In this document: positions 22,222 through 53,889 of the stretch, one piece after another | Layout of the letters: each line of letters starts with the position of its first letter | How positions within the stretch are numbered: the stretch's first letter is position 1 | NCBI GenBank assembly: GCA_009829735.1 | Contig: CM020618.1 | Location: 34,200,894 to 34,264,893 of the forward strand | Reading direction: 5' to 3' | DNA: 64,000 nucleotides | Source: Pyropia yezoensis | Taxonomy: Eukaryota; Rhodophyta; Bangiophyceae; Bangiales; Bangiaceae | The notes under the pieces: model-generated | Told to the model about the DNA's origin: nothing | Database searches by the model: none | Seen by the model: only the letters and a program-made list of their open reading frames with translations | Translations under genes and position numbers: made by a program

Positions 22222-22690
22222 TGTGGCAGTATTAACCCCCAGGTAGGGGGGCAACACGTGCCATGCAAGGGGCGGCAGGCCACTAGCCTGATCCGTTCCT
22301 CCCCCTGCATTTGGGTCCATATTCCCTAAGTTTGGGATAGTTAGCTTAGTAGTAAATCCAACTTGGATTTGAGGGTTTTCTGCATTTATCGTCTTGAATT
22401 TTCGTGTGGCCCGGTGGGCAGGTGCTGGGGTGGGAGATTCTGAGTGGCGAGATTCTGAGGGGACCCTGGGGGGATAAGGGGAGGGACAGCGGGGCTTGGC
22501 CCTGCGTCCCCGTCCCGACCAAGAAACTGTTGGACCACACACCATCCACTTGTTTGTCCGTGGGGGGTTTGCCCCACAACAGGGATAGAGTGTGTGCGAC
22601 TTGCACTTCTTCCGGTTCCCCCGACACGGGAGGCAGCCCTTGTACACCGCCCCAACTTGGGTGCCGTGTGTGCAAGTGGTTTTTGCCACA
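22222..22690 (+). mobile_element. B1 5' LTR
   Basis: 469 bp with TGTGGCAG...TTGCCACA ends. Its complementary strand is open throughout in one frame containing a Cys-rich stretch (C-L-P-C-R-G-N-R-K-K-C), shared by all full copies of this LTR. Confidence 0.9.
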
Positions 22691-22692
22691 TT

Positions 22693-22710
22693 TGGGGGAG
22701 CAGCAGGGGA
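22693..22710 (+). promoter_or_regulatory. B1 primer binding site
   Basis: Two bases after the LTR comes an 18-nt tract matching the PBS of families A and B (TGGTGGAGCAGCAGGGGA, here with one T-to-G change). It would pair with a tRNA 3' end TCCCCTGCTGCTCCACCA. The tRNA identity was not determined. Confidence 0.65.
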
Positions 22711-22809
22711 CAGAGGTAAACTTTACCTTCGGGTGCACCCGGGTGTAGGGGGCCCTCTGTCTCAGAGGAACGGTGGACTTGGACCGTGTCATACGGATCG
22801 TCAGCCAAC

Positions 22810-24756
22810 ATGGCTAGTTCGGACCCCCCGTCGTCCGGGGAGTACACGGGTGACGCACGTACTTCAGTGCCTTTGAATACTGGTGAGACACAGGTGGGTT
22901 TACCTGGGGTCGCAGAGGGACTAGAGGTCCCTCAAGCCAGCAGGACTGGAATTGTGGGCGGGCAACAGGCCACCCCGACTCAGTCGGGAGCTCGCTCGGG
23001 TGACACTTCTGATGTGGGTGGGCCGAAGTCTGGCCACCGTGTGGTATACTCAACGGGAACGTCCCAAGGGGTGAGGACTGTCCCCGCGGGTTCCACTCGG
23101 GTTGGAGCCAACTTTGGCTTGGAGCCGTCGCCAACTAGGCTGTCGGAGGACGGCGGACCTCCGTTGGTCGGCGATGGGCTCGCGCCCAAGCCCCCGGTTG
23201 AGACCCCTGAGGAACGTGGTTACCCCTCAGGTGGACACCCGGAGGCGGACCATGACTCAACTGGAGTCGTCAATCCACTCCTCGCGGAAACTGTCCGTCG
23301 GGAGGCGACCAATGTGTTGCGGCAGACTTTGCCGGACCTGGTGGTCACGATGACGAATACTATTCTGAATCAGATTGTGGCGAGCTTGCCAGATGGCCTT
23401 AATGTCCAGACCGGATCGGGGCTTTCGAGCCCGCGGGCGCAGGGGGAATCTCCCCTTACGCCTATCTCGGGGCGCCCCAAACAGGGGGCGACACCTGTGA
23501 CTCCCAGCGAGGGAGCCACACCATACTCGGTGTAGCATACGCCCTTGATGGGGGAGCTCCCCCCGGCAACGCCGGCGGCTACACCAAGCGCGCCGCGCCG
23601 GACTACAGGCACTGAGGGTGAACTTACCCCAGTGCCACAGCGGCTGTTGCCTCAACGTGAGGTGCCGCCCAAGGTCCAGGTAGCCAACCCGGTCTACCAG
23701 AGGATCTTTGATTGTGAGACCTACGCCCTCCACAACAAGTCGGTGGCGTATGGTCCTGACCAGGCCCGAGCCATGGGCCGTGCCAAGAAGAATGCACTTC
23801 ACTCTTTTGGGCTCAAAGCGGAGTGGGATGGAACTCCCCCCCTCCGTGTCTTTGAGTTCCTACGTCGTTTCACAAGAGCCTGTGACGACAATGCCATAAA
23901 TGAAGGCATGGCTTTTTACATTCTACAGGAGTTTACGAAGGGAGACCTGCGGACAGAACTTATGTCCGTCATGCCCAGCTCCTCAAGTGGAGGCGCTGGG
24001 GAGGTGACGTCCTATTTGGAGCTCGCCAACTGGTTGTTGAGGGCCATGGTTGATGAAGCGGCGCTGGCTTCTCAAGTCGAGGAGTTTACGCAAGCCCATC
24101 AGGGAGAGGCGAAGGACGAGTTGTCCTTTGTGGAGCGAGTCCGTAAGCTCAACAATCTTTGTGGTTTTCTTCATCCACAAGCTGTGGTGAGGAGTCGGTT
24201 TGTGGAGGGACTCCATTGGTCAGTCCGGATGGAGACCCGGGAGCATAACACTGCCCGGGTGACCCTGGCCGAGTTGGCTAGGTTCGCCTACCGCAGAGGC
24301 GAGGCCTACCGCAAGTTGCGGGAAGAACAACGCCAGGAGCGTCAGGCCGAGTTGGCCAAGGAACGGGAGGAGGCGCGCCGAGCCAGAGAGTTGAGAGAGG
24401 CTCGCCGAATCCGTAAGGAGAGGGTGGTAGCTGCCGTGGGAACTTTCCAGGGTACCTCTTCGTCTTCCCCAGTTGGGAAGACCCCTCCGGGAACTGATAA
24501 TCGGTGTTGGAACTGCAACTCCGATGGACACTGGGCATATGATTGCCCCAAGTTGAGTAAACGCATCCAACAACTTGTTAGGAATGCGAGTAAGAAGTCG
24601 GCTACGAACGAAGTACGTTCACGCCGCGAGGGTGGGTCTCGACCGGTGGTGGCGGTCTCCACACCCTCGGCGGAGGGGGCGGACACGTCGTCCTCGGACT
24701 CGTCGTCTTCCCGTTCGTCCTCAGATTCGGACGCCAAGTCGGCGGGAAACGAATGA
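22810..24756 (+). pseudogene. gag: B1 gag, one in-frame stop
   Basis: Capsid/nucleocapsid precursor of a Ty3/gypsy element. From ATG 22810 it has a disordered Gly/Ser/Thr/Pro-rich N-terminus, then a helical capsid-like region (F-L-R-R-F-T-R-A near 23860). A charged coiled-coil-like Arg/Glu stretch (24300-24420) precedes a zinc knuckle C-W-N-C-N-S-D-G-H-W-A-Y-D-C at about 24506-24547 (CX2CX4HX4C). A Ser/Asp-rich end terminates in G-N-E. A TAG at 23533 replaces a sense codon of copy B2, so full-length product would require readthrough; the frame after it (Met at 23545) is open to the TGA. That stop overlaps the pol ATG as ATGA. Confidence 0.85.
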
Positions 24757-27700
24757 CCGTTGGAGCTGGTCGTCCGAAGCTCACAACGGCAGCCTCGGCC
24801 AAGTGGGTCAAGAGGACGAACCAACCGTGCCGGATACTGCGGCGACCTAAGGGAGTCCGCCCACCTCGGGTAGGACTCCCCAAGAACGAAAACCCACGTC
24901 GGGTCATCGCGGTGCTGACCGGTGAGAACTTCCAGGTGGCTGGACGGGTGCAACTTGCCCCCGGCCGCGCCTGTTGTGCCCGTATCGTACTTGATACCGG
25001 GTCAGGAGCCTCCTTGATACGCAAGTCGCTATTACCAAAGGAGGTGAAGCTCCAACGCTGGAGGTCTAAAGCTGACCATCTGATCGATATCAATGGTGCT
25101 GTACTTCCCAACGTTGGTGCCGTGACCCTACCAACTAGGATGGGGACGCATGAGGTCGACGTGACCTATGGAGTAGTTGAGAATATATCGGTACCCCTGC
25201 TTCTGGGTACCCCTTATGTTGTAACTCAAGTGCCTTTGATTTGTGGCCCTGAGTACTGGGTCAAGTTGATGAATGGGGACACCATCCCCATCCTTGGTAA
25301 GGGAAAGTCTGTGGCTCCTGTGACAGTCTCACAGTCGAAGCCTGTTTGCTCTGTGAGGGAAGGGTTTACTGCTACCCTGCGTTTAGCCCGTAAAGTCACG
25401 TTGCCCCCCAACTCGGTGGCGCACGTTGACGTTGTAACTGACTGTACGGGGAACGGGTTGGTGCACCCCTACCCCCGTCTTGCTCGCAAGCACCAAGTGC
25501 ATGCTGCCCTTGGCACGATGGACTCCAAAGTCGGAGTCCCGTGGAGAATCCAGGTTATGAACCTGAGCTCGTTGCCCAAGTACTTCAAGTCGGGAGCCAA
25601 GTTCGGCTATATCGACCAACACGAGGGACCGGTAGTAGCGGTCACCCTCAACGCGGGCGCGAGTAGCAACCCGAAGTCCGGAAAGGAGAAGCATCAAGCC
25701 GAGTCGGCCGCCTTTACCTGTCACTGTGGCGCCTACCAGTGCAAGCGTCTACCGTTTGGCCTGTGTAACGTGCCGGCAACTTTCCAGCGCGCCATGGACA
25801 TGATTCTGGCTGGAGTACGGTGGCAGATCTGTCTCGTGTACCTAGACGATATCATTGTGTTCTCCCAAAGTCCGGAGGAACACATTGGCCATCTTGGCCA
25901 GGTGTTCAAGCTACTTCCTGACGCCGGTGTGTCACTGAAGGCGAGTAAGTGCCACCTCTTCACTCAAGAGGTGGAGTACTTGGGACATGTTGTCCGTCCG
26001 GGGCGTCTCAGCGTCAACGAGAAGAGCTTGAGGGCCATCCGTAAGGCTCAGTACCCCCGGACCCAGACCCAGATGAGGAGCTTCCTCGGGATGTGTAACG
26101 TGTACCGACGTTTCACCAAGGGCTTCGCCAAGGTGGCGAAACCGTTGAATGAGTTAGTGAGCTCAACGCTACCGAAGAACCTGCCTCCCCCAAGTCGGGT
26201 GGAGCAGGAATCCTTTGAGACTCTTCGGGACCTTCTGCTGAAGCCCCCTATCCTGGCTATTCCCAGGTTGGGAGGCCACTACATCCTGGATGTGGACGCT
26301 AGCTACGACCAACTTGGTTGTGTGTTGCTTCAGCAGCAGCCGGACAAGGAGTACTTGCCGGTGGGATACTTCAGCAAGGGGCTGAACTCGGCCGAGAAGA
26401 ACTACGGAGTCACCGAGTTGGAAGGACTCGCAGTGGTGTGGGCGGTGACGTCACTTCGTCACTACCTGGAGGGTGAGAAGTTCCTCATCCGCTGTGACCA
26501 CCGCGCGTTGCAGTTTATCTTCGAGACGGACTGTACGAACACTCGTCTCAACCGGTGGAGGGTGCGACTGGCACCCTTCAACTTTGACATTGAGTACCGA
26601 CCTGGCAGGCAACATGCCCTTGCCGACGGCCTCTCTCGGGTACCTACCGAGGGGCTGGACACTAACCCAGTCGATGAGGACATCCCCATCGTGGGGGTAG
26701 TCATGCGCTCGGGTCAGGCGTTGAACCCCGAGGCGCCAGGGAACAAGAAGTACTTGCCCCTGTCCCTGGACGAGGTGGTGAAGGCCCAGGCCGAGGATCC
26801 CTTCTGCAAGTCGCAGAGGGATACACTGGATACGGTGGTTGAGACGCGCTTCTTTCTCGAAGACGATGGCCTCCTCATGAGGAGGGGGGTATTCCAGGGG
26901 ACCGAACAACTTGTCGTCCCCACATCCCTCAAGGACAGTATCCTTGAGAGGGAGCACAACGCTCCCACAGGTGGACACCCGGGGTCTAGTAAACTGTACG
27001 AGACCCTGAGGACCAGGTACTACTGGCCGTCCATGGTGGTGGACATCTACAGTTGGGTGGCTGCCTGCACAAGTTGTGCACAGAACCGTCTGATGGAACG
27101 GCGGCCTAGTACGGCTATGCTATTGTTCCCGGCCAAGGAGCCCTTCGCCGCGTTGGCGATGGACATCCTTGGGCCCCTGCCAGTGACCGAGGAGGGCAAC
27201 CAGTACCTCCTGGTCATCTGTGACCGCTTCACGAAACTTACGCGAGCGATCCCACTGGCAGAGATCACGGCCATGTCGGTCGTGTCAGCCTCCCTAGATC
27301 ACTGGGTTGCCGCGTATGGCATCCCAGATAGTACACTATCGGACAATGGACCGCAATTTGCGTCTGTACTGTTTGAGGGAGTGCTGGATATGTTGGGGGT
27401 TAAGGCAAACTATGCCACCCCCTACCACCCACAAACTAATGGGCAGGTGGAGCGCTTCAACAAAACTATTGTTAGGCAGCTGCGCCACTATGTGAGTGAG
27501 CACGTGAAGACGTGGGACCAATACATTTCTATTCTTACCACTGCCCACAATTCGCAGGTTTACTCATCTACAGGGGAAGTACCCCTCGCTTTTGTGACCC
27601 CCCGTCGTGTGCGGTCTATTGCCGTGCGGCGGTCGCTCCCAACTGGCGAGGGTAGTGGCAGTACGCCTACTCCTACTGAGAGTAAGGCGGAGTTCGCTGC

Positions 27701-28253
27701 TAGGCTGGAGCACCTCATCCCTAAAGTCAGGGCTGAGATGGACAAAGCACAAAAGCGCTACAAGCGTAGCTTTGACAAAAAGGTGCGCAATGCTAAGCAT
27801 GTCCCCGAGCAGGGTGACTGGGTGCTGGTACACTCGCACACCCCAACTGGGGGTAAGCTGGTATTCCAGACGAAGGGTCCGTACCAGGTCCTTCGTACTG
27901 ATGGGCGGCGCTTCACCATCGAAAGTGACGATGGGGTCCGCACAGTGAACGGACAGGACGTGGTCAAAGTTGCACCACCGCCTGCAGGCGACCCAGCTTG
28001 GGCGCGTGTGTTGGAAGCGTGGCGCCTCCCCTCACTGCCTGCGGCCAAACAGGGCCCGCAGGAGTACGTGTTCGATAAGTTCATCGACCACGGATGGGAT
28101 GAAGACACTGACCGCCTCATGTTGAGGGTGCGTTGGTTTGGCTACAAAGCCAAGGACGATACGTGGGAATATGTGGAGGACCTTCCTGCTGAGAAGGTCC
28201 GGGCGTACTGTGCCCGGAGTGAGATAGACCCTAACAGCCCTCCCTCAACGTGA
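24753..28253 (+). CDS. pol: B1 pol: protease, truncated RT, RNase H, integrase, chromodomain
   Basis: 1166-residue polyprotein starting at the ATG that overlaps the gag stop (ATGA, -1 frame). Aspartic protease motif L-D-T-G-S-G at 80-85. RT is incomplete: sequence goes from protease-linker residues (about 316) straight to the motif-B region (F-T-C-H-C-G, about 321-326). The fingers and the first catalytic Asp are therefore absent, although Y-L-D-D remains at 363-366. RNase H spans about 508-628. The integrase zinc finger uses H735, H742, C772, C775, and the catalytic core D804, D864, E900. A GPY/F-like segment follows, then a chromodomain at about 1103-1155 (V-R-W-F-G-Y...D-D-T-W-E-Y). Usual chromovirus pols are 150-200 residues longer. 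Copy B2 has the same deletion. It cannot encode a self-sufficient RT. Confidence 0.92.
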   Translation: MTVGAGRPKLTTAASAKWVKRTNQPCRILRRPKGVRPPRVGLPKNENPRRVIAVLTGENFQVAGRVQLAPGRACCARIVLDTGSGASLIRKSLLPKEVKLQRWRSKADHLIDINGAVLPNVGAVTLPTRMGTHEVDVTYGVVENISVPLLLGTPYVVTQVPLICGPEYWVKLMNGDTIPILGKGKSVAPVTVSQSKPVCSVREGFTATLRLARKVTLPPNSVAHVDVVTDCTGNGLVHPYPRLARKHQVHAALGTMDSKVGVPWRIQVMNLSSLPKYFKSGAKFGYIDQHEGPVVAVTLNAGASSNPKSGKEKHQAESAAFTCHCGAYQCKRLPFGLCNVPATFQRAMDMILAGVRWQICLVYLDDIIVFSQSPEEHIGHLGQVFKLLPDAGVSLKASKCHLFTQEVEYLGHVVRPGRLSVNEKSLRAIRKAQYPRTQTQMRSFLGMCNVYRRFTKGFAKVAKPLNELVSSTLPKNLPPPSRVEQESFETLRDLLLKPPILAIPRLGGHYILDVDASYDQLGCVLLQQQPDKEYLPVGYFSKGLNSAEKNYGVTELEGLAVVWAVTSLRHYLEGEKFLIRCDHRALQFIFETDCTNTRLNRWRVRLAPFNFDIEYRPGRQHALADGLSRVPTEGLDTNPVDEDIPIVGVVMRSGQALNPEAPGNKKYLPLSLDEVVKAQAEDPFCKSQRDTLDTVVETRFFLEDDGLLMRRGVFQGTEQLVVPTSLKDSILEREHNAPTGGHPGSSKLYETLRTRYYWPSMVVDIYSWVAACTSCAQNRLMERRPSTAMLLFPAKEPFAALAMDILGPLPVTEEGNQYLLVICDRFTKLTRAIPLAEITAMSVVSASLDHWVAAYGIPDSTLSDNGPQFASVLFEGVLDMLGVKANYATPYHPQTNGQVERFNKTIVRQLRHYVSEHVKTWDQYISILTTAHNSQVYSSTGEVPLAFVTPRRVRSIAVRRSLPTGEGSGSTPTPTESKAEFAARLEHLIPKVRAEMDKAQKRYKRSFDKKVRNAKHVPEQGDWVLVHSHTPTGGKLVFQTKGPYQVLRTDGRRFTIESDDGVRTVNGQDVVKVAPPPAGDPAWARVLEAWRLPSLPAAKQGPQEYVFDKFIDHGWDEDTDRLMLRVRWFGYKAKDDTWEYVEDLPAEKVRAYCARSEIDPNSPPST

Positions 28254-28334
28254 GGGAAGGCCGAGCAACAGTGCCAAGAGAGTGCTTCAAGTCGAAGTGG
28301 TACGCAGAGTGGCTTTTAACTACAGCCCTAACCC

Positions 28335-29408
28335 TTACACTCTCACAACAAAGGCAGCTGCCAACGAGGCATGCATGCTAGACTCTCCAACCCCACGGTC
28401 CTCGCCCTCACGTGGAGGCGAGCGGCGAGACCCACGCCGATAACGGTCTCCACTCGTTGGAAGGGGCGGCGGCTCCAAGTCGGAACCGTCGCGCCCTTCA
28501 CGGTCGCGCAAGTGGCGCCGACCGTGGCTACTCTTCTGCCTGGTCTTGCGCGCAAGTTTGCGAAGCAGACGCCGGGACCGACTCCGACTCTGACGGAGTC
28601 GAGGACTCCGAGACGGAGTAAGACAACTCGTCTTCCGACACGGAGGGAGAGCGCCGCGAGTGTCGGCGACGACGGCGAGGAGGCGAGTATGCCCGGCTCG
28701 CGCGACGTTTGCCACGCCCAAGTGGAGCTGGCTGGGCCATAATAGCCCCAATGCGAGCCAACTCGGCTGTCATAAACTCCGCCACCGACTCGCAACTCGC
28801 GGTCGCCACTGCAGTACGAACGCGCTCCTCAAGTTGAGGAATCTCGGAACTTTGGAGGGTTGCGGTCGACGCGGCCAACCAGGAAATGGTGCGCACCAAC
28901 GTGGTGATCATCATCTCTGAGTTTAGAGGCGTGGGCGGTAACACCAACTTGGGGTATACCGTCAGGAGGGTGGCCCCCAAGTTGGGGGACACCGGGGTGG
29001 ATGACTCCACGGCCACGCTAATCGGGATGTTTCCGTGAGGCTGGAAAGGAACAGGAGGAAGCGGAGGGGCACGCCGAGGTGGCGGAACCCGGGTGTAACT
29101 GCGACCCCGACTTGGGGCCCCCGCAGTGGGTTGAGTCATATGGTCATCATGTGAGGGCACCGCCATAACTATGGCCTTGTCCGGGGGTGGCGCAGTGTGG
29201 CGATCCACCCCCGGGGCATACGGGTAGTCCCCGATGCCCAACCCCTCTCGTAGGACCACACGGCCGTCGTGAAGTTCACGAGCGACCCACACGAACTGGC
29301 GAAGTGCGCCATCGTCCTTGGGCCCACGAGTGGGGCGGCGCAACTTGTGCTCAATGCTCTCCCACTCGATAAACTTGTGGAGGCGGAGCATCTCCTCAAG
29401 AAGAGTGA
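28335..29408 (-). pseudogene. B1 antisense ORF, C-terminal part
   Basis: C-terminal two-thirds of the family-B aORF, opposite to gag-pol and converging on pol with about 80 bp between the stop codons. It continues the N-terminal part at 40187-41087, separated by the family-A insertion. It encodes the region beginning with L-H-K-F-I-E-W-E-S, a Pro-rich middle, and an Arg/Ser-rich C-terminus. An extra base near 28574 relative to copy B2 frameshifts the last 80 codons. The intact homologue is at 44787-46760. Confidence 0.75.
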
Positions 29409-29413
29409 GTTGT

Positions 29414-29776
29414 TGTAGCACAATAGGAATCCGTCGCACGTCCACTCTCAGGGAACACTCACCAAGGGGGATCGGCACCAACGTCACCGGGAGGCCAAGG
29501 TTGCTGTCCTTGGAGCGCAAGCCACGGGACCAAGATGGGAGCCCAAATGGGAGGGGTTTGTTGTTCTACCTTGGCCGGCGGTGGATTCGCCGCCGGCCCC
29601 CACGTTATAATCCCTCGGAGACGCTACTAACTACCCTCCACCCCAAGATGCAAGTCCCTCTGGTCATACGTAACTTGTAGATACCGTGACCAGTCCGGAC
29701 TCTCAAATTGTAAGCCAAGGATTAGAAGTAGCCCCCCTAACATTAGGGTCACAATACGGCCAACCATATTGCTACA
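29414..29776 (-). mobile_element. A1 3' LTR
   Basis: 363 bp, TGTAGC...GCTACA ends. On the element strand it is preceded by a G-rich polypurine tract (29777-29791). It contains the 9-bp-stem hairpin GGCCGGCGG/CCGCCGGCC also present in the other A LTRs. Confidence 0.95.
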
Positions 29777-30367
29777 TATCCCCCCCTTAGATTCGGCCCG
29801 TCCTCGGGTCGAGTTGCATTCGGGATACCGAATGTAAGTGGGTCGCGTGACCGTTTACCAGTCGGGTGGGGCTTTGCGCCCCGTCGCGACAGACGCCCCT
29901 TTTCGAGGTTGCCTGAGGGGGGTGCCCCCCTTTGTGCGGTACACACACGATCCGTTTTCCGGACCGTTAAATTCCCGATGCGGGTTCTGTTCACGACCCC
30001 CCTTTCCGAGGGGTGGTGCAAGCGGATCCGCCACCAGGTGTCTGGTGGTAGGGGAGCCCCTCTCGTGTTACCGAGTGAATGGGGGCGGCCGCTCCCGCTT
30101 TTCGCGGGGGCGGTTTCGGGGTGAACCCCTCTTGGTTGCCCCGTACGGGGGTGTGGCCCCGGCCCGCCCAGGTGCCTGGGTGAAGCCCGTTCGTAGCCTC
30201 GTGGAGCGCGGGTCGACCCGCGCGCCTGCGGCGCTTCTCGTGGCCGTTTGTGGTCATAAGCGCGGGCGCCCGCGCTTCCCTGGCTCGTCCGCGCGAGCGT
30301 TCCTCGTACCGGGTCGAGCCGGCCTCGGCTTTTCTGCAAGGGGCGCCCCTGCTACCCCGGTTGCACC
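29777..30367 (+). promoter_or_regulatory. Hairpin-dense leader of antisense gene, A1
   Basis: About 590 bp from the LTR edge to the aORF ATG, with little coding character. Stem-loops include CATTCGG-GATA-CCGAATG, CCACCAG-GTGT-CTGGTGG, CCCGC-TTTTC-GCGGG, and the perfect palindromes GCGCGGGTCGACCCGCGC and AGCGCGGGCGCCCGCGCT. Its first bases act as the polypurine tract of the sense element. It is expected to contain the antisense promoter and 5' UTR; on sense genomic RNA the same stems would lie just inside the 3' LTR. Confidence 0.6.
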
Positions 30368-32737
30368 ATGTCGGACCCCCAGGTACCCGGGGGCGAGGAC
30401 GACCTCCTGCCTGAAGAGGGGGAAGAGGTGATGGTGGACGACGTTCCCGTCTCCGCCACCGCCGCCGAGTGCTTCCTAGCGAGCTCGTCGGAGGACGAGG
30501 ACGACCGGGTGACCGTTCGTGTGGCCCCGGAAGGCGCGCCGGGCGGGTTGTCGTCCGTGTGTAGCGGCACGACGGCTCCGTCGGGTGGTGGACAACCGCG
30601 TGCAGCGGTTGCTTCTACCGCTTCTCCTCCGGCGGCCCGGATGGCTTCTGTCGCCGGTACCGGCGTGGCTCTACCTCAAGACGGTGTCGCCGGCGTGGCG
30701 GATGGTGGTGGCGGCACCCCGGCCAGTCCGGCGGGTCAAGACGGCGCGGGTGCCCGCCCGATTGGTGTGTCCGCTGCGGCGGGTAGCGGATCTACCCATG
30801 CTGCCCCCGTGGTACCCACGTCGGGTCCGGGTGGCGGCGATGCTCTGCCCGCGGTGCCGCGGGCGTCTGGTGGTCAAGGTGGGTCTACACCGATGGCAGT
30901 GGACTCCGGTAGTTACTCCGGGCGGGCGCCCGCCCTTCTTCTTCCTCCTCGGCCGCGTGCGACTCCGGCGCCGACCCCTCTTCCGGTGGGGCATCCCCCG
31001 GCGCCCCCTATTCTTCCTGGTCCTGCCCGGGTTGCCCCGTTGGGTGGCGGCGTCGCCGTGGCGGCGGGTCAACCCGCCATGTCGATGCTCGACTTGGTGG
31101 CTCGGGTTCGAGGCCTGACTGTGCAAGAGTCAATGGAGTCCGATGGGCGGATGCGGGTGGACTTCCACCTGCCCCATCCCCGTGGAGAGTCCTCCCGGCG
31201 CGTCAAGGTGGACCCGAGTTTGGAGCGGGAGTTGGTGCGGCTGGTCAACCAGCCGAACGCGGTGCGGGTGGAACACCATTGGATCCTGAGTCAGCCGGAC
31301 GACCGGCATGCGCAGCTCTGGCGCACCCGGGTGGGACGGGGTGTGGTCTACCTCGACCCCGCCTTCGGGGTATGCGACCTGATTGCCCCCGCGTTGCCGC
31401 GGGAGATTGACTACCCGGCTAGTGCTCGGGGGATTGCGGCGGCGGCGGAGCCGGTTGCGTTTGGGGAGACGGTGGGCAGTACCGGTCGGTATCCCGACTT
31501 TGATTACTACCCGGGGGTATCCCCGTATCTGTCGTTGACGGCTCCCTACCCGCCTATGGCGGGGTTGAAGTCGGCGTCGAGCTGGCGACGTAACCATGGT
31601 GTCATGGCGGATGCGTTTCGCACGGATATAACGTGTGCGTTGCAGACCGTCAACGGTCGTGCGCCGGTATACACTCCCGTGCGCCCGCCGCTATGGCAGG
31701 AGGGGTGGGAACCCGCCCCTGCTTTCCGGTTTGACACCGGCTCCTGTCTCCGATACTTCGGGAGTGTGTTGGCCTCCCGGCCGGTCCACCCGTTGCAGGG
31801 TACCTTCACCCTTGAGGTTACCCTCGGGCAGGCGTCCTCCTTCTTGCTGTCCGTCCGCCAGCAGGGGCGCCTGTTTCATCTTCCGACGGGTGTCCGTCGG
31901 CACATCGCGCAGTTGGGCGTGGACCAGATAGCTGCCAAGACCGGGTTGGCCCGGGAGTTCGAGGCCCTGCTGGCTGTTCACGATGCCGTGAGCTGGGCTG
32001 GGGTGTTGGCCCTTCCCCCGTACCGGGACCCGCAGGCTGGGGCTACCCCCTTGCCTCGTCACTCGTTGCGTATCCGGCGTACTCAGCCGGGTGAGCCTAG
32101 TTGCCATGGGTGGGCGTCCACCGAGGCCGTTCCTGACCTGGGTATTCCCATGGTTATCCATGACCCTCTTCAGGTCCTTGCCCCGTGGTTCGGTAACCCG
32201 ATACCGGCGGCGGTTGGCCGTCGTCCCCGAGAGTGGGGCTCTGCGGGTGGGGAGCGTGAGGTGTCCCGTCGTCGGGCGGAGCCCCGCCGGGGTTACGGTG
32301 GAGCCCCTTCGGTGGGGTCCTACCGGGCCTCATATCAGGCGCCACCGGCTCCGGTGGTGGCCGTGTCGGCTCCTCTGGCTCCTCTGGCTGCGCCAGTGTC
32401 CGCTCCCGCCCCTGTCATACAAGACGGGAGCCCCCGTCTCTGGTATGAGGGCGTTGACGCCCTTCTTGCCCGCGCAATGCGAGAGGGTCTCTCTGTTAGC
32501 TGGGGGGATATCCCCCCAGGTGCTGCGCTGGTTGGGTCAGCGCGTTGCTTCGGTGGTGTGCTTGATCGCCTCCAGAAAGCTTTGGAGGACGTGGAGGCTG
32601 GCCGCAGCACCCTCGTCCAGCTATGCACCGAGGTAACTCGGGTGATTGACCGTCGTGAGATTGCCGACCGGTGGAGCACGGAGGTATACGCGCTTACGCG
32701 TGAGTGGCCTCCCTCGGGCAGTTGGTCTACCCACTGA
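30368..32737 (+). CDS. Family-A antisense ORF (aORF), intact, 789 aa
   Basis: Intact antisense gene located where some retroelements carry env, but on the opposite strand to gag-pol. The ATG at 30368 is preceded by CACC. The N-terminus is acidic (residues 9-45 rich in Glu/Asp), followed by a Ser/Pro/Ala/Gly-rich disordered region to about 230. A folded-looking core at about 250-620 contains V-E-H-H-W-I-L-S-Q-P-D-D-R-H, L-K-S-A-S-S-W-R-R, Y-F-G-S-V-L (463-468) and L-P-T-G-V-R-R (505-511). A Pro-rich linker and a short helical tail end it. There is no signal peptide or transmembrane helix, so it is not an obvious envelope protein. The frameshifted copy at 14693-17181 and distant counterparts in families B and C argue that it is a real gene. 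Function unknown; nuclear or nucleic-acid-binding roles are speculation. Confidence 0.85.
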   Translation: MSDPQVPGGEDDLLPEEGEEVMVDDVPVSATAAECFLASSSEDEDDRVTVRVAPEGAPGGLSSVCSGTTAPSGGGQPRAAVASTASPPAARMASVAGTGVALPQDGVAGVADGGGGTPASPAGQDGAGARPIGVSAAAGSGSTHAAPVVPTSGPGGGDALPAVPRASGGQGGSTPMAVDSGSYSGRAPALLLPPRPRATPAPTPLPVGHPPAPPILPGPARVAPLGGGVAVAAGQPAMSMLDLVARVRGLTVQESMESDGRMRVDFHLPHPRGESSRRVKVDPSLERELVRLVNQPNAVRVEHHWILSQPDDRHAQLWRTRVGRGVVYLDPAFGVCDLIAPALPREIDYPASARGIAAAAEPVAFGETVGSTGRYPDFDYYPGVSPYLSLTAPYPPMAGLKSASSWRRNHGVMADAFRTDITCALQTVNGRAPVYTPVRPPLWQEGWEPAPAFRFDTGSCLRYFGSVLASRPVHPLQGTFTLEVTLGQASSFLLSVRQQGRLFHLPTGVRRHIAQLGVDQIAAKTGLAREFEALLAVHDAVSWAGVLALPPYRDPQAGATPLPRHSLRIRRTQPGEPSCHGWASTEAVPDLGIPMVIHDPLQVLAPWFGNPIPAAVGRRPREWGSAGGEREVSRRRAEPRRGYGGAPSVGSYRASYQAPPAPVVAVSAPLAPLAAPVSAPAPVIQDGSPRLWYEGVDALLARAMREGLSVSWGDIPPGAALVGSARCFGGVLDRLQKALEDVEAGRSTLVQLCTEVTRVIDRREIADRWSTEVYALTREWPPSGSWSTH

Positions 32738-33239
32738 GGAGTGCTATTGTTTGTGAGGGGGAGGGCCCCGGTAACCCTTCTGGTAGCCGGGTCGTAGTGA
32801 GTATAAACTCATCCCCAACGGGGGCATTGCTTGCTTCTGTTTGCTGCCCTGGGGAGTACCCCTTCCGGCTCAGTGGTGCCTTGCCTCCCGTCCAACTTCT
32901 TCCGGTTGGTTCATAATTTGGGAGGTCATCCTCCCTCACTTTGTGTCTTGGCTTGGGGAGGTCCTCCTCCCGTGTAGGCCTCCTAGTTACTTCGATATTA
33001 TCGGAGTTAGCCTTTACCTTCAAGTTAACTTATTAAGGTTCGGGTTTTGCTTAGTTACCTAAGCTTGACTCTACTTAGATGCCTAAGCTTGGTTCGACTT
33101 AGAAACCTAAGTCTGATTTGACTTAGAAACCTAAGTCTGATTTGACTTAGAAACCTAAGTCTGCCGTAACCATGTAACACCCTACTTAGTAGGTATAAGC
33201 CTCACCCCCCAACAGCCGAAGTCGGTGTCGGTTGGGTTG
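32738..33239. terminator. Convergent 3' region with hairpin array
   Basis: About 500 bp between the stop codons of the converging aORF (+) and pol (-). It contains the 24-bp hairpin array (33048-33163) and an upstream stretch of direct GGGGAGG-like blocks. It presumably provides 3' ends for both transcripts; no strong poly(A) consensus was recognised. Confidence 0.4.
33048..33163. repeat. Five 24-bp hairpin repeats
   Basis: CTTAG starts recur exactly every 24 bp at 33050, 33074, 33098, 33122 and 33146. The last three units are identical and fold as GACTTAG-AAAC-CTAAGTC; the first two have changed loops and partly changed stems but still pair (CTTAG/CTAAG). The array lies midway between converging genes. 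Confidence 0.85.
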
Positions 33240-36200
33240 TTACAGTAGGCGTCGTCGCCTCATGTAAGGCATGAGGAGTTGGCGGGGTATATTTGCCGCC
33301 TGTTCACAGGTGGGTGAGTCGTATCCGACCCACATCACCTTGACGTACCAGGGTCCTGGTAGGTTCGGGTCGGTGTGTCCGACCACGCTCTCTACTTGGT
33401 ATGGAATCCCATCCGGCCCCACCGGGTCATCTGACCGGTGGGTTGTAAGAGCTTCATGTAGCAACCCAGCCGGTACCGGCTGAGGCTGTTCCGGCTTCGG
33501 AGCAGGTGTGACATCGTTCACACTGATGCGTTGGATCTCCGTATCGGAGTGTAAGATAACAGAGTGGTCATCTCTGTGGAGAATCTGGTACGGTCTCTTG
33601 ACCGGTTGCATGAGCTTGTTCCCCCGGAACTTCTGGTGTCTGATGTAGACCCAGTCACCTGTCATCAGGGTAGCGTTGCGCACCCGTAGTCGGGCGTCGA
33701 AGTTCTTCTTGTATCGAAGTTGTGTTCTGTCAAGGGCACCCTTGAGCTTAGGAATCATCCACGATAGCTTGGCCAACCAAGCTAGGTGTATACGTTCGGC
33801 CGGTCGGCCCTTCGGTGTATCATACCGAGTGCACCTGCCTGGTGGCAGCGTCAGATTACCGACGCCCATCGGCATGACCCACTCCAGTGGGGCGATGTTG
33901 GTACTCCGATGTGGCCTGGCATTGTATGCCAGGGTGAGTACGGACAGGAGCCTGTCCCAAGTGTTCGTGTGCTCGGCCACGTAGCACTGTAGCATCTTAA
34001 CGATGGTGCGGTTGAACCGCTCGACCTGCCCGTTGGTTTGCGGGTGGTAGTCGGATGCCCGACGTTGTTCGATGCCGAACATGCCCAGGACCTTAGCGCA
34101 GAATGCTGACGTAAGGTTTGCTCCGTTGTCGGAGAGGAGTTGCTTCATGACTCCGTATGCACTGATCCAGTGGTCAACCACTGCGTTCATGATGGTGTAT
34201 GCCGTATCATTCGGGATGGCTGTCGCTCGCGACAGCTTAGTGAAGCGGTCAGACATGACCAGGATGTACCTGTTCCCTTCTTCCGTTACCGGAAGTGGCC
34301 CGAGTATGTCGATAGCGACTTGCTCGTTGGGCCCATCGGGTGGGAATAGCTTCATGGCAGACGCCTGCCTATGTAGACTCATGCGGTTACGTGCACAGGG
34401 GTGGCATCCCCTTACGTGGTCGACCACGTCGACGGCCATTGCTGGCCAGTAGAAGAACCTTCGCATTGCTGCGAACATACCTGAACCCCCCGGGTGTCCG
34501 GCTGTAGGGTTCTCGTGCTCTCGTTCCATGACGGCTTGCCGTAAGGAAACGGGAACCATGACTTGATGTCGTCCATCGGCGGGTGCCCCCCGGTATATGA
34601 GTCCGTCTTCGTTCTCGGAGAAGATGCCGGCCGTACCGGCCAGGAGGTTAGCGCGATGGCGTCTACAGTCATCGTCATTGGCCTGTGCCTCGCGGAAGTC
34701 CGCGAGGGTCAGTGGGCATGCTCGGTGTGCCATGGTATGGTCAACCATACCTTGGGTAGCGTTACCCACCATGCAGACCGGTACCACCGGGATGTCCTCG
34801 TCCACCGGGCGGGTATCCCCGCTCGGGGTGTCGAGTCGAGACAATGCGTCTCCGAGATGGTGGGTTGACCCAGCCTTATACACGGTACGGTAGTCGTGCT
34901 CGGCCATCTTCAGCCTCCATCGGGCTAGCCTCCCATGGCTATCGGAATCCTTGTCACCAAGGTTGAGGAGCCATCGTAGGGGTTCGTGGTCGGACCTCAC
35001 GATGAACCTGGAGCCCTCCAGGTATGGACGGAGCAGTTGCACTGCCCATATAACTCCGAGGCACTCACGCTCGGTGGCACTATAGTTACGCTCAGCCGGG
35101 TTGAGTGTCCGGCTGAAGTATCCTACCGGACGTAGGTCCGGGATAGCGTTATCGGAACCGATCAACGTCTCTCCCTGTAACAGGGTGCATCCCACTTGTG
35201 TATCGCATGCATCGACATCGATGACGAAGGTACCCCGTCTGTGCGGTAACGCAAGTACGGGTGGGGATAGTAGGGCTCGCTTCAGCGACTCGAATGCCTC
35301 CTCTTCGCTAGGCGAAGGGGGTTGGAGTACCTTGGGCAGCGTACTGCTCGTAAGAACCGTTAACGGTTTAGCTATCCGAGCGAAGTCCTTGACGAACCGT
35401 CGGTATACATTGCACATTCCCAGGATGCTCTTGAGCTGCGTCTGGGTGTTAGGGAACCGGGCATCCAGGAGTGCCCGGGTATTGGCTTCGAGTACCCCTA
35501 GATTACCAGGGGTTATCTGGTGGCCCAGATACTCGACCGTCTGTTGGAAGAAGGCGCACTTCTTCAGACGCAGGGTTACCCCGGCGTTCCTCAAGAGGGT
35601 GAGTACCTCGTCAACATGTTGCACATGGTCATCCATGTTACGCGAGAAGACGATGACGTCATCGAGGTACACTAGGCAGTTACGCCACTTCACCCCCGAC
35701 AGTATAATGTCGATAGCCCGCTGGAATGTAGCGGGGGCGTTGGACAATCCGAAGGGCATCCTTAGGAACTCGTACACTCCACTGTGACAGACAAATGCCG
35801 TCTTGGGGATATCCTCGTCCGCCACCGGGATCTGCCAGTATCCGGCATTGCAGTCGATGGTGGTAAACACCGTAGCTTCCCCCAGGGAGTCGATGCATTC
35901 ATCCATCCTTGGTAAAGGGTAGGAGACCTTCTTGGTAACTAAGTTGAGGCGTCGATAATCGATGCAAAACCGAGGGGTTTGATCCTTCTTCGGTACGATA
36001 ACGACTGGGGCACCCCACTCCGACATCGAAGGTCGTATCACCTTCGCTTCACTCATCCTCTTCACTTCTCCATCAACGATCTCTCGTTGCATAGGTCCCG
36101 CTCGGTGCGGTTGTGACCGGGCGGGGCGTGCGCCTGGTACCAGGTCAATACGATGTTGGGTTGCCCCAATTGTACCCAAGGCTCCGCCTGTCCACATGAC

Positions 36201-37406
36201 GTCATGCTTTCTTAACATCCGTCGTACCCCTTCGGCTACCGAAGGGGGCAGGTGGTCAAGGTCAGCCTCGGCCAGTGCCTTCAATGCTTCTTGGTCCTTC
36301 GGCGGAATATCCGCCGGTAATGATGGTCGACTAGGCTTCCCGTCATCGGGTTGCTGTCGCTCGGTGGTCTCGGCGACCGCCAGCACCTCAAGTGGTTCCA
36401 CTTGACCTTCCTTGTCAGGGGTAAGGATATCTCCTTCGTAGAGCTCGGAAATCCCGAGGATAGTTCGCTTCGGGAGGGTGACTGCCTTACGGCGATAGTT
36501 CGCCATCACAAGGAGGGACGACCCTCCTGATGGGAGGTCTATGAGACCGTTGGCCATGGTCAACCCATGGCGCTTGTACGTCCGCAGGTTGGACTTGACT
36601 CTGCAGATGCCTGCGAGGTCACAGTTAACCGGGAGGACTGTCTTCGACAACGGCTCAAAGCGAGTGCGCTTGGCCAACCGAAGTGTCTTCGGCTCGACAC
36701 TTGCGTACACCTCAGCCACGTTAACGTGGCTCCCTTTTAGCGTCAGGTCCCTGACGATAGCAGTGTGTCCTCGCTTCGTCCCGTCGGCTTCTTGAAGCTC
36801 GACGGTCCTCCGGCCTGGCCGGATTGCATCAACGTGAACGTTGATGAAGGTGCACCCCAGTATGCAGGGCACCGATAGGGTCTCACACACCAGGAAGTCG
36901 ACTTCCGTGGTGAGTTCCCCGATGGTCACCCGCAGCGACATCGCTGCGGTCGTACGAATGAGGCGACCATTCGCGTCCTTGATGGTGGGTCCCCGAGTCA
37001 CTCTGACTCGCGGAAGCCACTTGTCCGGGAGGGTATCCTTCCGGATGAGGTTGGGTCCAGCCCCTGTATCCAGTACAGGGTAGTACGATCGTGTCGACTG
37101 GGGGTCAACCCCAAGTGTGGCTGATACCTTGAAGATCTCCAAGGTAAACAGCACGTGGCCTACACCGATATCCGGTGTTGCTCGGGCATCCTGAACAGGG
37201 CCCTTGTCTGGTTCCATGTGACGGGGCTTCCCGTCCTCTCCTCCCAACCTTGGTGGTTGGTCATCAATCCCCTGACGCCGTGTCGTCGGGGCCGGAAGGT
37301 GTACCCGGGGGTTGATGCGGCGTCGGCTCAACCGCGCTCTCCGTGGGGCTTTCCCCGTGGTACTCCGGGGTGGCTTGCTTGGGTAACCCCAGCGCCCCCC
37401 GGTCAT
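33240..37406 (-). CDS. pol: A1 pol: protease, RT, RNase H, integrase, chromodomain
   Basis: 1388-residue polyprotein from ATG 37406, eight bases after the gag stop and in another frame. Protease D-T-G at 113-115. Complete RT at about 440-620 with Asp518 in motif A, L-R-M-P-F-G-L-S-N-A-P in motif B and Y-L-D-D at 580-583. RNase H at about 726-856 including R-S-D-H. Integrase zinc finger H964, H971, C1001, C1004; catalytic triad D1033, D1093, E1129. A GPY/F-like segment (V-K-R-P-Y) at about 1269-1273, then a C-terminal chromodomain at about 1336-1385 (V-M-W-V-G-Y). All catalytic residues are present, so this copy could be functional. It belongs to the chromovirus branch of Metaviridae. Confidence 0.96.
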   Translation of the reverse strand: MTGGRWGYPSKPPRSTTGKAPRRARLSRRRINPRVHLPAPTTRRQGIDDQPPRLGGEDGKPRHMEPDKGPVQDARATPDIGVGHVLFTLEIFKVSATLGVDPQSTRSYYPVLDTGAGPNLIRKDTLPDKWLPRVRVTRGPTIKDANGRLIRTTAAMSLRVTIGELTTEVDFLVCETLSVPCILGCTFINVHVDAIRPGRRTVELQEADGTKRGHTAIVRDLTLKGSHVNVAEVYASVEPKTLRLAKRTRFEPLSKTVLPVNCDLAGICRVKSNLRTYKRHGLTMANGLIDLPSGGSSLLVMANYRRKAVTLPKRTILGISELYEGDILTPDKEGQVEPLEVLAVAETTERQQPDDGKPSRPSLPADIPPKDQEALKALAEADLDHLPPSVAEGVRRMLRKHDVMWTGGALGTIGATQHRIDLVPGARPARSQPHRAGPMQREIVDGEVKRMSEAKVIRPSMSEWGAPVVIVPKKDQTPRFCIDYRRLNLVTKKVSYPLPRMDECIDSLGEATVFTTIDCNAGYWQIPVADEDIPKTAFVCHSGVYEFLRMPFGLSNAPATFQRAIDIILSGVKWRNCLVYLDDVIVFSRNMDDHVQHVDEVLTLLRNAGVTLRLKKCAFFQQTVEYLGHQITPGNLGVLEANTRALLDARFPNTQTQLKSILGMCNVYRRFVKDFARIAKPLTVLTSSTLPKVLQPPSPSEEEAFESLKRALLSPPVLALPHRRGTFVIDVDACDTQVGCTLLQGETLIGSDNAIPDLRPVGYFSRTLNPAERNYSATERECLGVIWAVQLLRPYLEGSRFIVRSDHEPLRWLLNLGDKDSDSHGRLARWRLKMAEHDYRTVYKAGSTHHLGDALSRLDTPSGDTRPVDEDIPVVPVCMVGNATQGMVDHTMAHRACPLTLADFREAQANDDDCRRHRANLLAGTAGIFSENEDGLIYRGAPADGRHQVMVPVSLRQAVMEREHENPTAGHPGGSGMFAAMRRFFYWPAMAVDVVDHVRGCHPCARNRMSLHRQASAMKLFPPDGPNEQVAIDILGPLPVTEEGNRYILVMSDRFTKLSRATAIPNDTAYTIMNAVVDHWISAYGVMKQLLSDNGANLTSAFCAKVLGMFGIEQRRASDYHPQTNGQVERFNRTIVKMLQCYVAEHTNTWDRLLSVLTLAYNARPHRSTNIAPLEWVMPMGVGNLTLPPGRCTRYDTPKGRPAERIHLAWLAKLSWMIPKLKGALDRTQLRYKKNFDARLRVRNATLMTGDWVYIRHQKFRGNKLMQPVKRPYQILHRDDHSVILHSDTEIQRISVNDVTPAPKPEQPQPVPAGLLHEALTTHRSDDPVGPDGIPYQVESVVGHTDPNLPGPWYVKVMWVGYDSPTCEQAANIPRQLLMPYMRRRRLL

Positions 37407-37414
37407 CCTTCCTC

Positions 37415-39598
37415 TTACTCGTTTCCCGCCCTTGGTAGGGTGCTGTCCGCCGGGACATCCGGCTGAGGAGGTGCCTCCTCGACGGCCAGTACTCCACCTG
37501 GAGCTGGCTGCCTACCCGGTGCGGGTCCGGGTGCTCTGGCGGGATACCCCCCGGTGGATGCCTTGCGTTGCGCCGCCGCCCGCCGAGACTCCTCGGGGAT
37601 GAGTGGGCAGGAAGACACCCAGTGCTGGGGATCCCCACACAACATACATCCGGACGTGCCGGTCCCCCCTTGAGTTCGCATCGGGGTAGCCCCGTAGCTG
37701 CGGTTGCCTCCCTCGGGCGCCCGAGTGCCTGCTCCCTGGTAGGCCTTGGGTCCTTGGGTCAACCGGAACATGGGCTCCCCCCACCGGTTGGGTCGGCCCG
37801 CAATCTGCGGAGGTGCCTCTGCGCGCACCGCCCATGTTGGCAAGGGTTGGTGAGGGTTACCCGTCACCGGGGCATACCCCGTAGTCCGCACATACGGGAC
37901 GCGCCGTCCCGCTCCTTCGTTGACCTGGAACTGGGTTCCAGCCGCGGCGATGCACGCTACCGTACCATGCTCATCAATCACCGGCGTCGCCGGTAGCAAC
38001 AGGTGGCCCTGTTGGTCAACTAGAGGTTCATCCTCGCCCGTAGGGGTATGTTCGGTCGCCACCAGTACTGGTGCGGCCTGAAGTTCCACCTTCTCTTGCC
38101 TCGGTACCGGGGTCAGACTGGGCTTGCCTCCCTCACCCTTGGGCTGTGAGGCCAGAGCACACTCCGGGTGTAGAACCCGGTAGGCGTCCCCCAGGGACTT
38201 GCACATATGCATCAGTCGACTGAAGTTCGTCCGTGCCGTGTTGGCGCCCCGTGCGGATATCCGCACGTAGTTGGGTACTCCTGCGAACAGGATGGCCCGT
38301 AGCTCCCCTTCTCCGAGGAGCTTCCCCAGCTCGTAGTCGAGCTCTTGAATCCGTCGTCCGAACATCTCCTCATCCTCCCAGCTCTGGGCGGTGGCAGTGC
38401 GCAGGGCCCGGTAGTGGTCCTCGCACTTGTCCTCACTGAGGTAACTGCTCAGCAGCTCCTTGAGGATCTCACGGTAATCCATTGGGGTGGCCGCGACCCT
38501 CATTCCCGGCATCGGGGATGCCTGGCGAAGGATGCCTCGCACCCGTTCATCAACAAAGAACGGGAAGATCTCCAGGGCCAGCCCCTCGTTAACGAGGGCC
38601 TTGTCCGCGGCTGCCTTGAAGCTAGTCAAGAAGCCGATGACTGCCAACGGGCGTCCGTTCGGCCCTCCGAACATAGGGACTCCCTTCATAAGGGTCTGCA
38701 TAGAACGGATCGCCCGATGCGACGTATTACGCATCGATTCCGATACGGTGGTAGAGCGGTCCTCCAAACGATAACGTTCCGGAGTAAGAACCGACCGGAA
38801 GACCTCGTTGACGATCTCCGTGTCAGCGTCCTGGATATCCAGTCGCTTAGCCAGTTGATGAGCAAACTCATCGGACTCCATCCGCTTCAGTAGGCTCGCA
38901 GTTACCTGCGCGGTCATAGCTTCCACCACTGACGGTGGTACTTCAGGCGTCGGCACCTCGGGAACCCGAGCTGGCTGGCCTCCTTCGTCGTGGGGGTACT
39001 GTGAGAGGGTACCCCCTCCCCCAATAACCGACTCTCCACCGGCGTAAGTATCCGCCGGGTCGTGTCCGCGGAGTCCGCTTCGGGTGCTCCGAGCGTATCG
39101 CTCCGTGTGACTCCGTTCCAACTCTGCCGACGAGTCGGATCCATACCCCATGGTGTCCGGGGGTTGTCCAGGAGTAGCAACACCAGGGTTGACCCTGGTG
39201 GACTCCGAAAGTAGTCCGGCCGGTTCAAACCGTACCGGTGTGGGAGGAACACGACGGGGTCCCGTCGTGTGGCGTGTTGACATCAACACTGCCATTGCGT
39301 CCTCCGTCCGATCTTGACGGGCGTCGAGCCCGGTGAACCGGGCCTCGATGCGGGCCAATGATGCCATCAGGGAATCCCCTGGTGAAGGAGGCGGCGGAGT
39401 GAGGTCGGTCGATGACAGTTGAGGCGGGCCCCCGCCTCCTGCCGTCCGAGCCGTGCCAAACGTCGATCCGGCACCGGAAAGCATTGGCGTCTCAATGTTG
39501 TCGATCGGGTTCCCGATCCCGGATCCCGTAGTCACCTCCGGGGTCGGCGTCGACGCCGATCCGTCATCTTGAACGTTCCCCGTCTCTTGGGTAGACAT
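37415..39598 (-). CDS. gag: A1 gag, 727 aa
   Basis: Structural precursor of the retrotransposon particle. Starts at ATG 39598 (the frame is open a few codons upstream without another ATG). A Thr/Ser/Gly/Pro-rich N-terminal third leads to a capsid-like helical region (F-L-T-S-F-K-A-A-A-D, then I-L-K-E-L-L-S-S-Y-L, then F-S-R-L-M-H-M-C-K). Near residue 650 there is a zinc knuckle C-M-L-C-G-D-P-Q-H-W-V-S-S-C (CX2CX4HX4C) binding genomic RNA, and a Pro-rich tail ending in G-N-E, the same last residues as family-B gag. The frame is intact. The pol ATG follows after eight bases, suggesting reinitiation or frameshifting rather than readthrough. Confidence 0.92.
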   Translation of the reverse strand: MSTQETGNVQDDGSASTPTPEVTTGSGIGNPIDNIETPMLSGAGSTFGTARTAGGGGPPQLSSTDLTPPPPSPGDSLMASLARIEARFTGLDARQDRTEDAMAVLMSTRHTTGPRRVPPTPVRFEPAGLLSESTRVNPGVATPGQPPDTMGYGSDSSAELERSHTERYARSTRSGLRGHDPADTYAGGESVIGGGGTLSQYPHDEGGQPARVPEVPTPEVPPSVVEAMTAQVTASLLKRMESDEFAHQLAKRLDIQDADTEIVNEVFRSVLTPERYRLEDRSTTVSESMRNTSHRAIRSMQTLMKGVPMFGGPNGRPLAVIGFLTSFKAAADKALVNEGLALEIFPFFVDERVRGILRQASPMPGMRVAATPMDYREILKELLSSYLSEDKCEDHYRALRTATAQSWEDEEMFGRRIQELDYELGKLLGEGELRAILFAGVPNYVRISARGANTARTNFSRLMHMCKSLGDAYRVLHPECALASQPKGEGGKPSLTPVPRQEKVELQAAPVLVATEHTPTGEDEPLVDQQGHLLLPATPVIDEHGTVACIAAAGTQFQVNEGAGRRVPYVRTTGYAPVTGNPHQPLPTWAVRAEAPPQIAGRPNRWGEPMFRLTQGPKAYQGAGTRAPEGGNRSYGATPMRTQGGTGTSGCMLCGDPQHWVSSCPLIPEESRRAAAQRKASTGGYPARAPGPAPGRQPAPGGVLAVEEAPPQPDVPADSTLPRAGNE

Positions 39599-39804
39599 AG
39601 TCACAATCAGTCAACCGACGTAACAATCACCACGAATAAGAGAGCGAGGGGGTAGATTGGGGAGAGTAGCAGTAGATCACAGTCAAAGGTAGAAACTCAA
39701 CACAATCGATCAGGTCGCAACACCACGAGTACAAGAAAAGGACCGGATCCCTATCCGTGTGCCAGGGCCGAAGACGGCGTCACCATAGGGGTGACAGAAA
39801 CCCG

Positions 39805-39822
39805 TCCCCTGCTGCTCCACCA
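39805..39822 (-). promoter_or_regulatory. A1 primer binding site
   Basis: One base inside the 5' LTR, the minus strand reads TGGTGGAGCAGCAGGGGA. It is complementary to a tRNA 3' end TCCCCTGCTGCTCCACCA, in which CCA, a 7-nt acceptor strand and CCCTG of a T-stem can be distinguished. The same tract is present in family B. Confidence 0.75.
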
Positions 39823-39823
39823 A

Positions 39824-40186
39824 TGTAGCTCAATAGGAATCCGTCGCACGTCAACTCTCAGGGAACACTCACCAAGGGGGATCGGCACCAACGTCACCGG
39901 GAGGCCAAGGTTGCTGTCCTTGGAGCGCAAGCCACGGGACCAAGATGGGAGCCCAAATGGGAGGGGTTTGTTGTTCTACCTTGGCCGGCGGTGGATTCGC
40001 CGCCGGCCCCCCCGTTATAAACCCTCGGAGACACTACTAACTACCCTCCACCCCAAGATGCAAGTCCCTCTGGTCATACGTAACTTGTAGATACCGTGAC
40101 CAGTCCTAACTCTCAAATTGAAAGCCAAGTATTAGAAGTAGCCCCCCTAACATTAGGGTCACAATACGGCCAACCATATTGCTACA
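39824..40186 (-). mobile_element. A1 5' LTR
   Basis: 363-bp partner of the LTR at 29414-29776, same ends, differing at about nine positions. The sense promoter of A1 is expected inside it. Confidence 0.95.
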
Positions 40187-41087: not shown

Positions 41088-41408
41088 GGCTCTCCCCAAG
41101 TTCTGGAGAGACGCTCTGGCTATCGCGGCACGAGACCCGCCTCGAGTTCAGGGGGACTCGGATCGTGGGTATACGGGTGGCCTCCCCAGCGTGGGGCGGC
41201 CCAGTGGAAGGTGAAGGGGAGGTGGTGGTGATGGTGAAGTGAGAACCGCGGAGAGCAAGCTGCCGAGTGGGCAAGCTTGAGGAGAGGGGCGGTCAACGTG
41301 ACCGCCTCCACATCCGCGTTACGTACTCGTTGGGGGACAGCAAGTCGCGCCCCAAACGCAGAGACGTGCGTTTACGCACCCCCTCACAGGGCCGACCGGG
41401 TCGGTCGG

Positions 41409-41425
41409 AACTGAGGAGAGGGGAC
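41409..41425 (+). promoter_or_regulatory. B1 polypurine tract
   Basis: AACTGAGGAGAGGGGAC immediately before the 3' LTR; the plus-strand primer site. The same tract is mirrored in B2 at 44449-44465. Confidence 0.75.
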
Positions 41426-53740: not shown

Positions 53741-53889
53741 ATTGTTGAACGTCAAGGTGATCGAAACTCTCAGCAAGCGGTTTACGAGCCATAAGTGCGC
53801 GTCCGCCAGACTGTTGCTGTGAATGAGGTGCACGTGCCCACGGCGGCTTTTATTGAAGTTACTCACGACATTGTGTTCTACACTACCAT

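Follow-up and report, generated by a model that had tools for sequence, protein, structure and literature searches.

This locus raises the question of why retrotransposons of three families should each carry a long reading frame on the strand opposite to gag and pol, whether that frame is a gene, and what its product might do. In the window, which is the whole 64,000-nt stretch of DNA analysed here and is occupied by nested Ty3/gypsy elements, five copies of the antisense gene are found across three families (A1 and A2, B1 and B2, and C). The antisense frame is, almost beyond doubt, a selected protein gene that is inherited with the element.

The complete element A2 lies on the minus strand at 29414..40186 and is delimited by its LTRs and by a 5-nt TSD, GTTGT, at 29409-29413 and 40187-40191. 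Its 3' LTR (29414-29776, minus strand, 363 nt) and 5' LTR (39824-40186, minus strand, 363 nt) share 97.5% identity, and between them lie gag (37415..39604, minus strand), which is related to B1 gag at 26% identity, and pol (33240..37406, minus strand), with protease-like, reverse transcriptase (RT), RNase H and integrase regions (Pfam). A 24-bp tandem repeat array (33050-33163) separates this pol from the A2 antisense ORF. A2 is inserted in B1 (22222..41894, plus strand; 5' LTR from 22222, 3' LTR to 41894, pol at 24753..28253 on the plus strand), for which no TSD was seen at the element ends, and it splits the B1 antisense gene in two; the split copy of the initial annotation is borne out by GTTGT flanking 29414-40186 on both sides. 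The second B element, B2, has its 3' LTR at 43982..44448 and its pol at 46842..50342, both on the minus strand. Lone B-type LTRs are present at 50882-51350, where the LTR interrupts B2 gag, and at 42153-42623, and a piece of a third B-like gag with a zinc knuckle (53889-55080) is 84.5% identical to B1. Element C enters across the right edge of the window, with its gag outside and its pol, from RNase H onward to the window edge, at 61999..63978 (minus strand). The probable 3' LTR of C (58587..59231, minus strand) has a right end placed by similarity to 9195-9791, an inverted stretch of 82% identity, and a left end placed by its termini only. A1, related to A2 but truncated, extends from 13747 to about 17163 and has a single LTR (13747..14108, minus strand, the sole one found for it). 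In positions 1-22200, tblastn found no gag or pol of the A, B or C type (C gag, being outside the window, gave no query). Of the ORFs scanned with Pfam, one alone looks like a host gene, a protein-kinase-like ORF at 1753-3138 on the minus strand.

The assignment of these elements to the chromoviruses, as proposed in the initial annotation, holds in part. Above the Pfam cut-off, RVT_1, RT_RNaseH, Integrase_H2C2 and rve are found in the pol of A, B1 and B2, and RT_RNaseH, Integrase_H2C2 and rve in that of C, whose RT would fall outside the window; the best PDB match of B2 pol is Ty3 Gag-Pol (E 1.4e-78). LTR termini of the TG..CA type, PBS-like stretches and purine-rich stretches are present in A2, B1 and B2, and a TSD in A2 only. 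This order of RT, RNase H and integrase, together with the LTRs, PBS and polypurine tracts, speaks for the assignment, but the chromodomain (PF00385) matches of B1 (9.4e-4), B2 (0.058) and C (8.5e-5) are all below the curated cut-off, and none was found in A pol at E<=1, the end of which is chromodomain-like by eye only. It is likely from these sequences that A, B and C are chromovirus-type Ty3/gypsy elements, and a likely home for them would be Chlamyvir, which passages of two papers describe as an algal chromovirus clade (PMC3350952, PMC6317226). The PBS-like stretches of A (39800-39823) and B (22692-22720) are near-identical, with GGAGCAGCAGGGGAC common to both, so that the two families may use the same primer tRNA.

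The position and orientation of the antisense gene are identical across families A, B and C. It starts 330-591 nt from an LTR in all five copies, the LTR of C being the probable one; its direction is toward pol in A2, B1, B2 and C and away from the LTR in A1, in agreement with the earlier description of an arrangement convergent with gag-pol across three families. The further statement that a long ORF occupies the interval from pol to the 3' LTR in each family stands in that all five copies of the gene are present, two of them, A2 and B2, as an intact ORF; A1 and C are not single ORFs. In A2, the intact ORF lies at 30368..32737 on the plus strand (789 aa from ATG), with the conserved core that is common to B and C at 31475..32047 (plus strand); in B2 it lies at 44787..46760 on the plus strand (657 aa from ATG), with its core at 45168..45776 (plus strand), and ends 81 nt from the pol stop. 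The A1 gene (14693..17181, plus strand) had been taken as one ORF, but a 4-nt difference near A2 position 30454 puts ATG 14693 in another frame than the long open one at 14818-17181 (787 aa), and its homology with the A2 gene stops near 17163, about 5 codons upstream of the A1 stop. The same correction applies to C (59808..61582, plus strand), which is broken, with ATG 59808 followed by a stop at 60000, a long frame at 60030-61352 that holds the conserved core (60237..60899, plus strand), and another frame at 61031-61582. The two parts of the B1 gene, both on the minus strand, are an open N-terminal part of 300 codons (40188..41087) and a C-terminal part (28338..29409) with a 1-nt insertion relative to B2.

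Several lines of evidence show that this frame is maintained as a protein gene. The longest stop-free runs are 825 codons in A2 and 677 codons in B2, and in 1000 dinucleotide shuffles of each the maxima were 497 and 470, with 0/1000 reaching the observed length for either ORF; among 23 overlapping segments of 3463 nt elsewhere in the window, the longest stop-free run was at most 468. Between A1 and A2, dN/dS is 0.36 over 732 codons of a protein-guided alignment and 0.397 in a second computation (718 codons; bootstrap 95% 0.33-0.49), and between the two parts of B1 and B2 it is 0.243 (300 codons; 0.12-0.47) and 0.321 (356 codons; 0.17-0.61), near the value for B1/B2 pol (0.256; 0.16-0.38). For the true frame, every bootstrap value stayed below 1, both for pol and for the three antisense sets. 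Read in frames +1 and +2, the antisense gene yields dN/dS of 1.0-2.4 with stops present, and the opposite-strand frame with common third codon positions gives omega of 0.32-0.48 but contains 8-19 stops, a low omega that pol echoes in its corresponding opposite-strand frame (0.365, with 26-27 stops). In the leader, which served as non-coding control, omega was 0.66-1.17 over six frames, the lowest being 0.664 (0.44-0.98), which barely excludes 1. Synonymous sites of the A1/A2 ORF are about 55% identical (pS 0.45), and 11 of the 13 indels between these copies are multiples of three, the other two being the A1 frameshift and the truncated end, as against 1 of 10 indels in the leader. The dN/dS of 0.24-0.40 with the frame kept, which covers the two copy pairs A1/A2 and B1/B2, the triplet indels and the length beyond shuffles thus identify a protein gene; together with the frame-specific protein homology between families described below, they rule out a chance open frame, as had been argued from the five copies. 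The pattern that the initial annotation named as refuting its claim, dN/dS near 1 with the frame not conserved, is not what these two copy pairs show.

The homology between the antisense proteins of the three families is an addition beyond the claims of the initial annotation. The proteins of A, B and C are homologous over a core of about 190 residues, with 20-27% identity between families (shared columns) and 13 invariant columns over five rows, including PYL, FG and LP. With seg filtering, blastp gives E values of 1e-8 (B2-C), 7e-6 (A2-B2), 2e-5 (A1-B2), 0.002 (A1-C) and 0.005 (A2-C), and in local alignments of the core, all five between-family pairs tested outscore all 2000 shuffles (z 7.9-18.2). 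A frame control with three pairs and 300 shuffles per frame gives z of 7.6-18.5 for the coding frame and at most 4.6 for the other five frames; non-coding frames reach 3.2-4.6 in three cases, with the top value of 4.6 in B2-C on the opposite strand, and in A2-C frame -2 has a raw score above that of the coding frame, yet a z of -0.2, its shuffles scoring equally. Pol identity between families is 38-40% over 615 shared columns and A-B gag identity is 26%; the divergence of the antisense protein between families is like that of gag, which fits a gene inherited with the element and changing at about the rate of gag. It follows from the homology that a single antisense gene was probably already in place when families A, B and C separated. 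The presence of a homologous gene in three families whose pol is only about 40% identical suggests that an antisense gene of this kind can belong to a Ty3/gypsy lineage, here a chromovirus-type one, over the long term rather than being a family-specific oddity.

The A2 leader, from the 3' LTR to the start of the antisense ORF (29777..30367, plus strand), has a polypurine tract on the minus strand at the LTR and is presumed to be the promoter or 5' UTR of the antisense gene. It is 76% identical to the A1 leader (14109-14692), compared with 89% for the LTR and about 55% for synonymous sites of the ORF, and contains conserved blocks and several conserved hairpin-like inverted repeats. Plus-strand RNA folding of the leader was stronger than in shuffles, with z of -5.1 in A2 and -4.7 in A1 (0/100 shuffles each) and -2.05 in B2 (4/100 shuffles). 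This conservation and folding fit a functional promoter or leader, but the region also borders the sense polypurine tract, so its signals are not proof of a promoter. A splice-donor-like hexamer, GTAAGT, occurs at A2 29834 and at the aligned A1 site, and a spliced antisense leader is possible.

The intact copies encode a protein of 657-789 residues. Judged by eye, its composition includes stretches rich in Pro and Arg, and its N-terminus in family A is rich in Gly, Pro and Ala. None of the Pfam matches of the antisense proteins reaches the cut-off, those to DUF6214 (E 0.04-0.05) and RGS12_usC (0.19) being treated as chance, and neither NCBIfam nor the PDB gave a match at E<=1. Rfam gave 0 matches at gathering thresholds. 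AlphaFold2 gave two models of low quality (mean pLDDT 35.8 and 49.7), with helices of moderate confidence only in core residues 101-180 (block means 58-86). At E<=10, Foldseek with the model of pLDDT 49.7 listed 24 matches in the PDB and 51 in the viral set, none of which reached E<=0.001.

Antisense accessory genes are a known niche of LTR retrotransposons. Passages of a review describe antisense ORFs between pol and the 3' LTR in the plant elements Grande (gene23), RIRE2, Retand and PvRetro13 and in the fungal element Boty, and state that plant aORF-3R are conserved to a degree like gag-pol, that the Grande antisense ORF has its own promoter and encodes a nuclear protein, and that it is not known what the antisense extra genes do in plant LTR retrotransposons (PMC7264820). 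The ORF of families A, B and C is like the aORF-3R class in lying between pol and the 3' LTR and in being conserved across copies, and the resemblance to Grande and Retand drawn earlier is confirmed for this antisense slot, as the review describes it (PMC7264820). Retand is described in part of another paper as a non-chromovirus with a TRP28 domain in 97% of clusters (PMC11963269), unlike B and C, whose pol ends are chromodomain-like (sub-threshold); TRP28 (PF04195) gave no match at E<=1 or <=10 among the Pfam models searched, with HMMER filters dropping most matches above 0.1. Boty, or BcGypsy1, of Botrytis, a fungal Ty3/gypsy element with the antisense gene brtn (passages of PMC7264820 and PMC8365987), is similar by description only. 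In REM1, a chromovirus of the green alga Chlamydomonas reinhardtii, the reverse frame is described in a passage of another paper as a truncated integrase with only GPY/F and chromodomain (PMC2774666), unlike A, B and C, which carry GPY/F-like (by eye) and chromodomain-like parts in the sense pol, and no Chromo match was found in the four antisense proteins scanned. A reverse frame in an algal chromovirus thus has precedent in REM1. The authors of the original REM1 study reportedly proposed a regulatory role for this frame. Besides REM1, no antisense ORF in an algal chromovirus was found among the matches listed, from a literature coverage that leaves out most subscription journals. The word 'antisense' is absent from the main text of the two Chlamyvir papers (PMC6317226, PMC3350952), the main text of the review contains no 'chromovir', 'alga' or 'REM1' (PMC7264820), and in the relevant passages of an Ectocarpus TE paper 'antisense' refers to small RNAs (PMC12477816). 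Judged by its sequence, the A/B/C antisense protein family is apparently new.

The reading that we favour, and hold to be somewhat probable as a whole, is that these are ambisense chromovirus-type Ty3/gypsy elements whose third gene, beside gag and pol, lies on the opposite strand, converges with pol and is transcribed separately from a putative promoter in the leader or LTR that would read inward. Separate antisense transcription would allow the protein to be made without genomic RNA. The product would be an accessory, probably nuclear factor that acts in control of sense transcription or in entry and integration of the DNA copy, a role comparable to that proposed for Grande gene23; taken by itself, the proposal of a nuclear or regulatory accessory role stands at about even chances. 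A basic stretch in B2 (12/20 K/R from residue 534) and the lack of a transmembrane-like segment in A2, B2 and the C frame (Kyte-Doolittle) agree better with a nuclear protein than with an envelope protein; an NLS-like pattern is found in B2 only, with none in A2 or C. A broader proposal, which we make tentatively, is that an entire algal chromovirus clade is ancestrally ambisense, with a third gene of new core and its own antisense promoter, kept since before the A/B/C split for nuclear control of expression or integration.

A different role for the protein, which appears unlikely but is the foremost of the alternatives, would be to counter silencing by the host, whether through RNA interference or at the level of chromatin. 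Sense and antisense transcripts of an ambisense element can overlap and thereby yield dsRNA, so that the element would gain from a silencing blocker; the convergent layout, with 81 nt between the B2 antisense ORF and pol stops, is consistent with this, as genomic RNA from LTR to LTR would cover the entire antisense gene. Anti-silencing factors commonly show constraint within families and fast divergence between families, which is the pattern seen here, but no Pfam family resembles the antisense protein at a score above the cut-off.

It is improbable that the gene encodes a structural or envelope-like particle protein that is antisense by happenstance, as its size and its location between pol and the 3' LTR, where env usually lies, might suggest. 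Against this, the Kyte-Doolittle mean over 19 residues peaks at 1.53 in A2, in a Pro/Ala stretch, at 1.13 in B2 and at 1.14 in the frame of C, with no transmembrane-like segment in any of them, and plant env-like ORFs are in sense orientation, as passages of the review state (PMC7264820). No relation to gag was detected either, with hhalign probabilities of 0.5% and 0.1%. An origin of the protein from gag or pol was rejected: at E<=1, blastp linked it to none of the pol proteins of A, B and C, and to gag only through a 17-residue match in B1 (E 0.40).

The position outside gag-pol and the lack of a detectable gag or pol relation would also be expected of a host gene captured by the ancestor of families A, B and C, which we consider quite improbable and which concerns origin, not function, and is compatible with the accessory-factor reading. 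No relative of the antisense protein was found in viral contigs (searched with the protein and its alignments) or in prokaryote genomes, both poor sources of algal elements, in a search confined to these two collections; no pol relatives were confirmed in the viral contigs either.

Hardly credible, and already refuted as a sole explanation, is a role for the antisense RNA by itself, with the open frame arising as a side effect of high GC. Although the GC content of 0.65 and 0.63 lengthens chance ORFs and the leader of family A shows strong structure (z -5.1 and -4.7) and 76% identity against an ORF pS of 0.45, the ORF length exceeds 1000 shuffles twice, omega is 0.24-0.40, indels fall in triplets, and the protein homology across families is strongest in the coding frame. 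The LTRs of A1 (13747-14108) and A2 (29414-29776) are 89% identical, against a 45% synonymous difference in their antisense ORFs, which may reflect LTR constraint or exchange.
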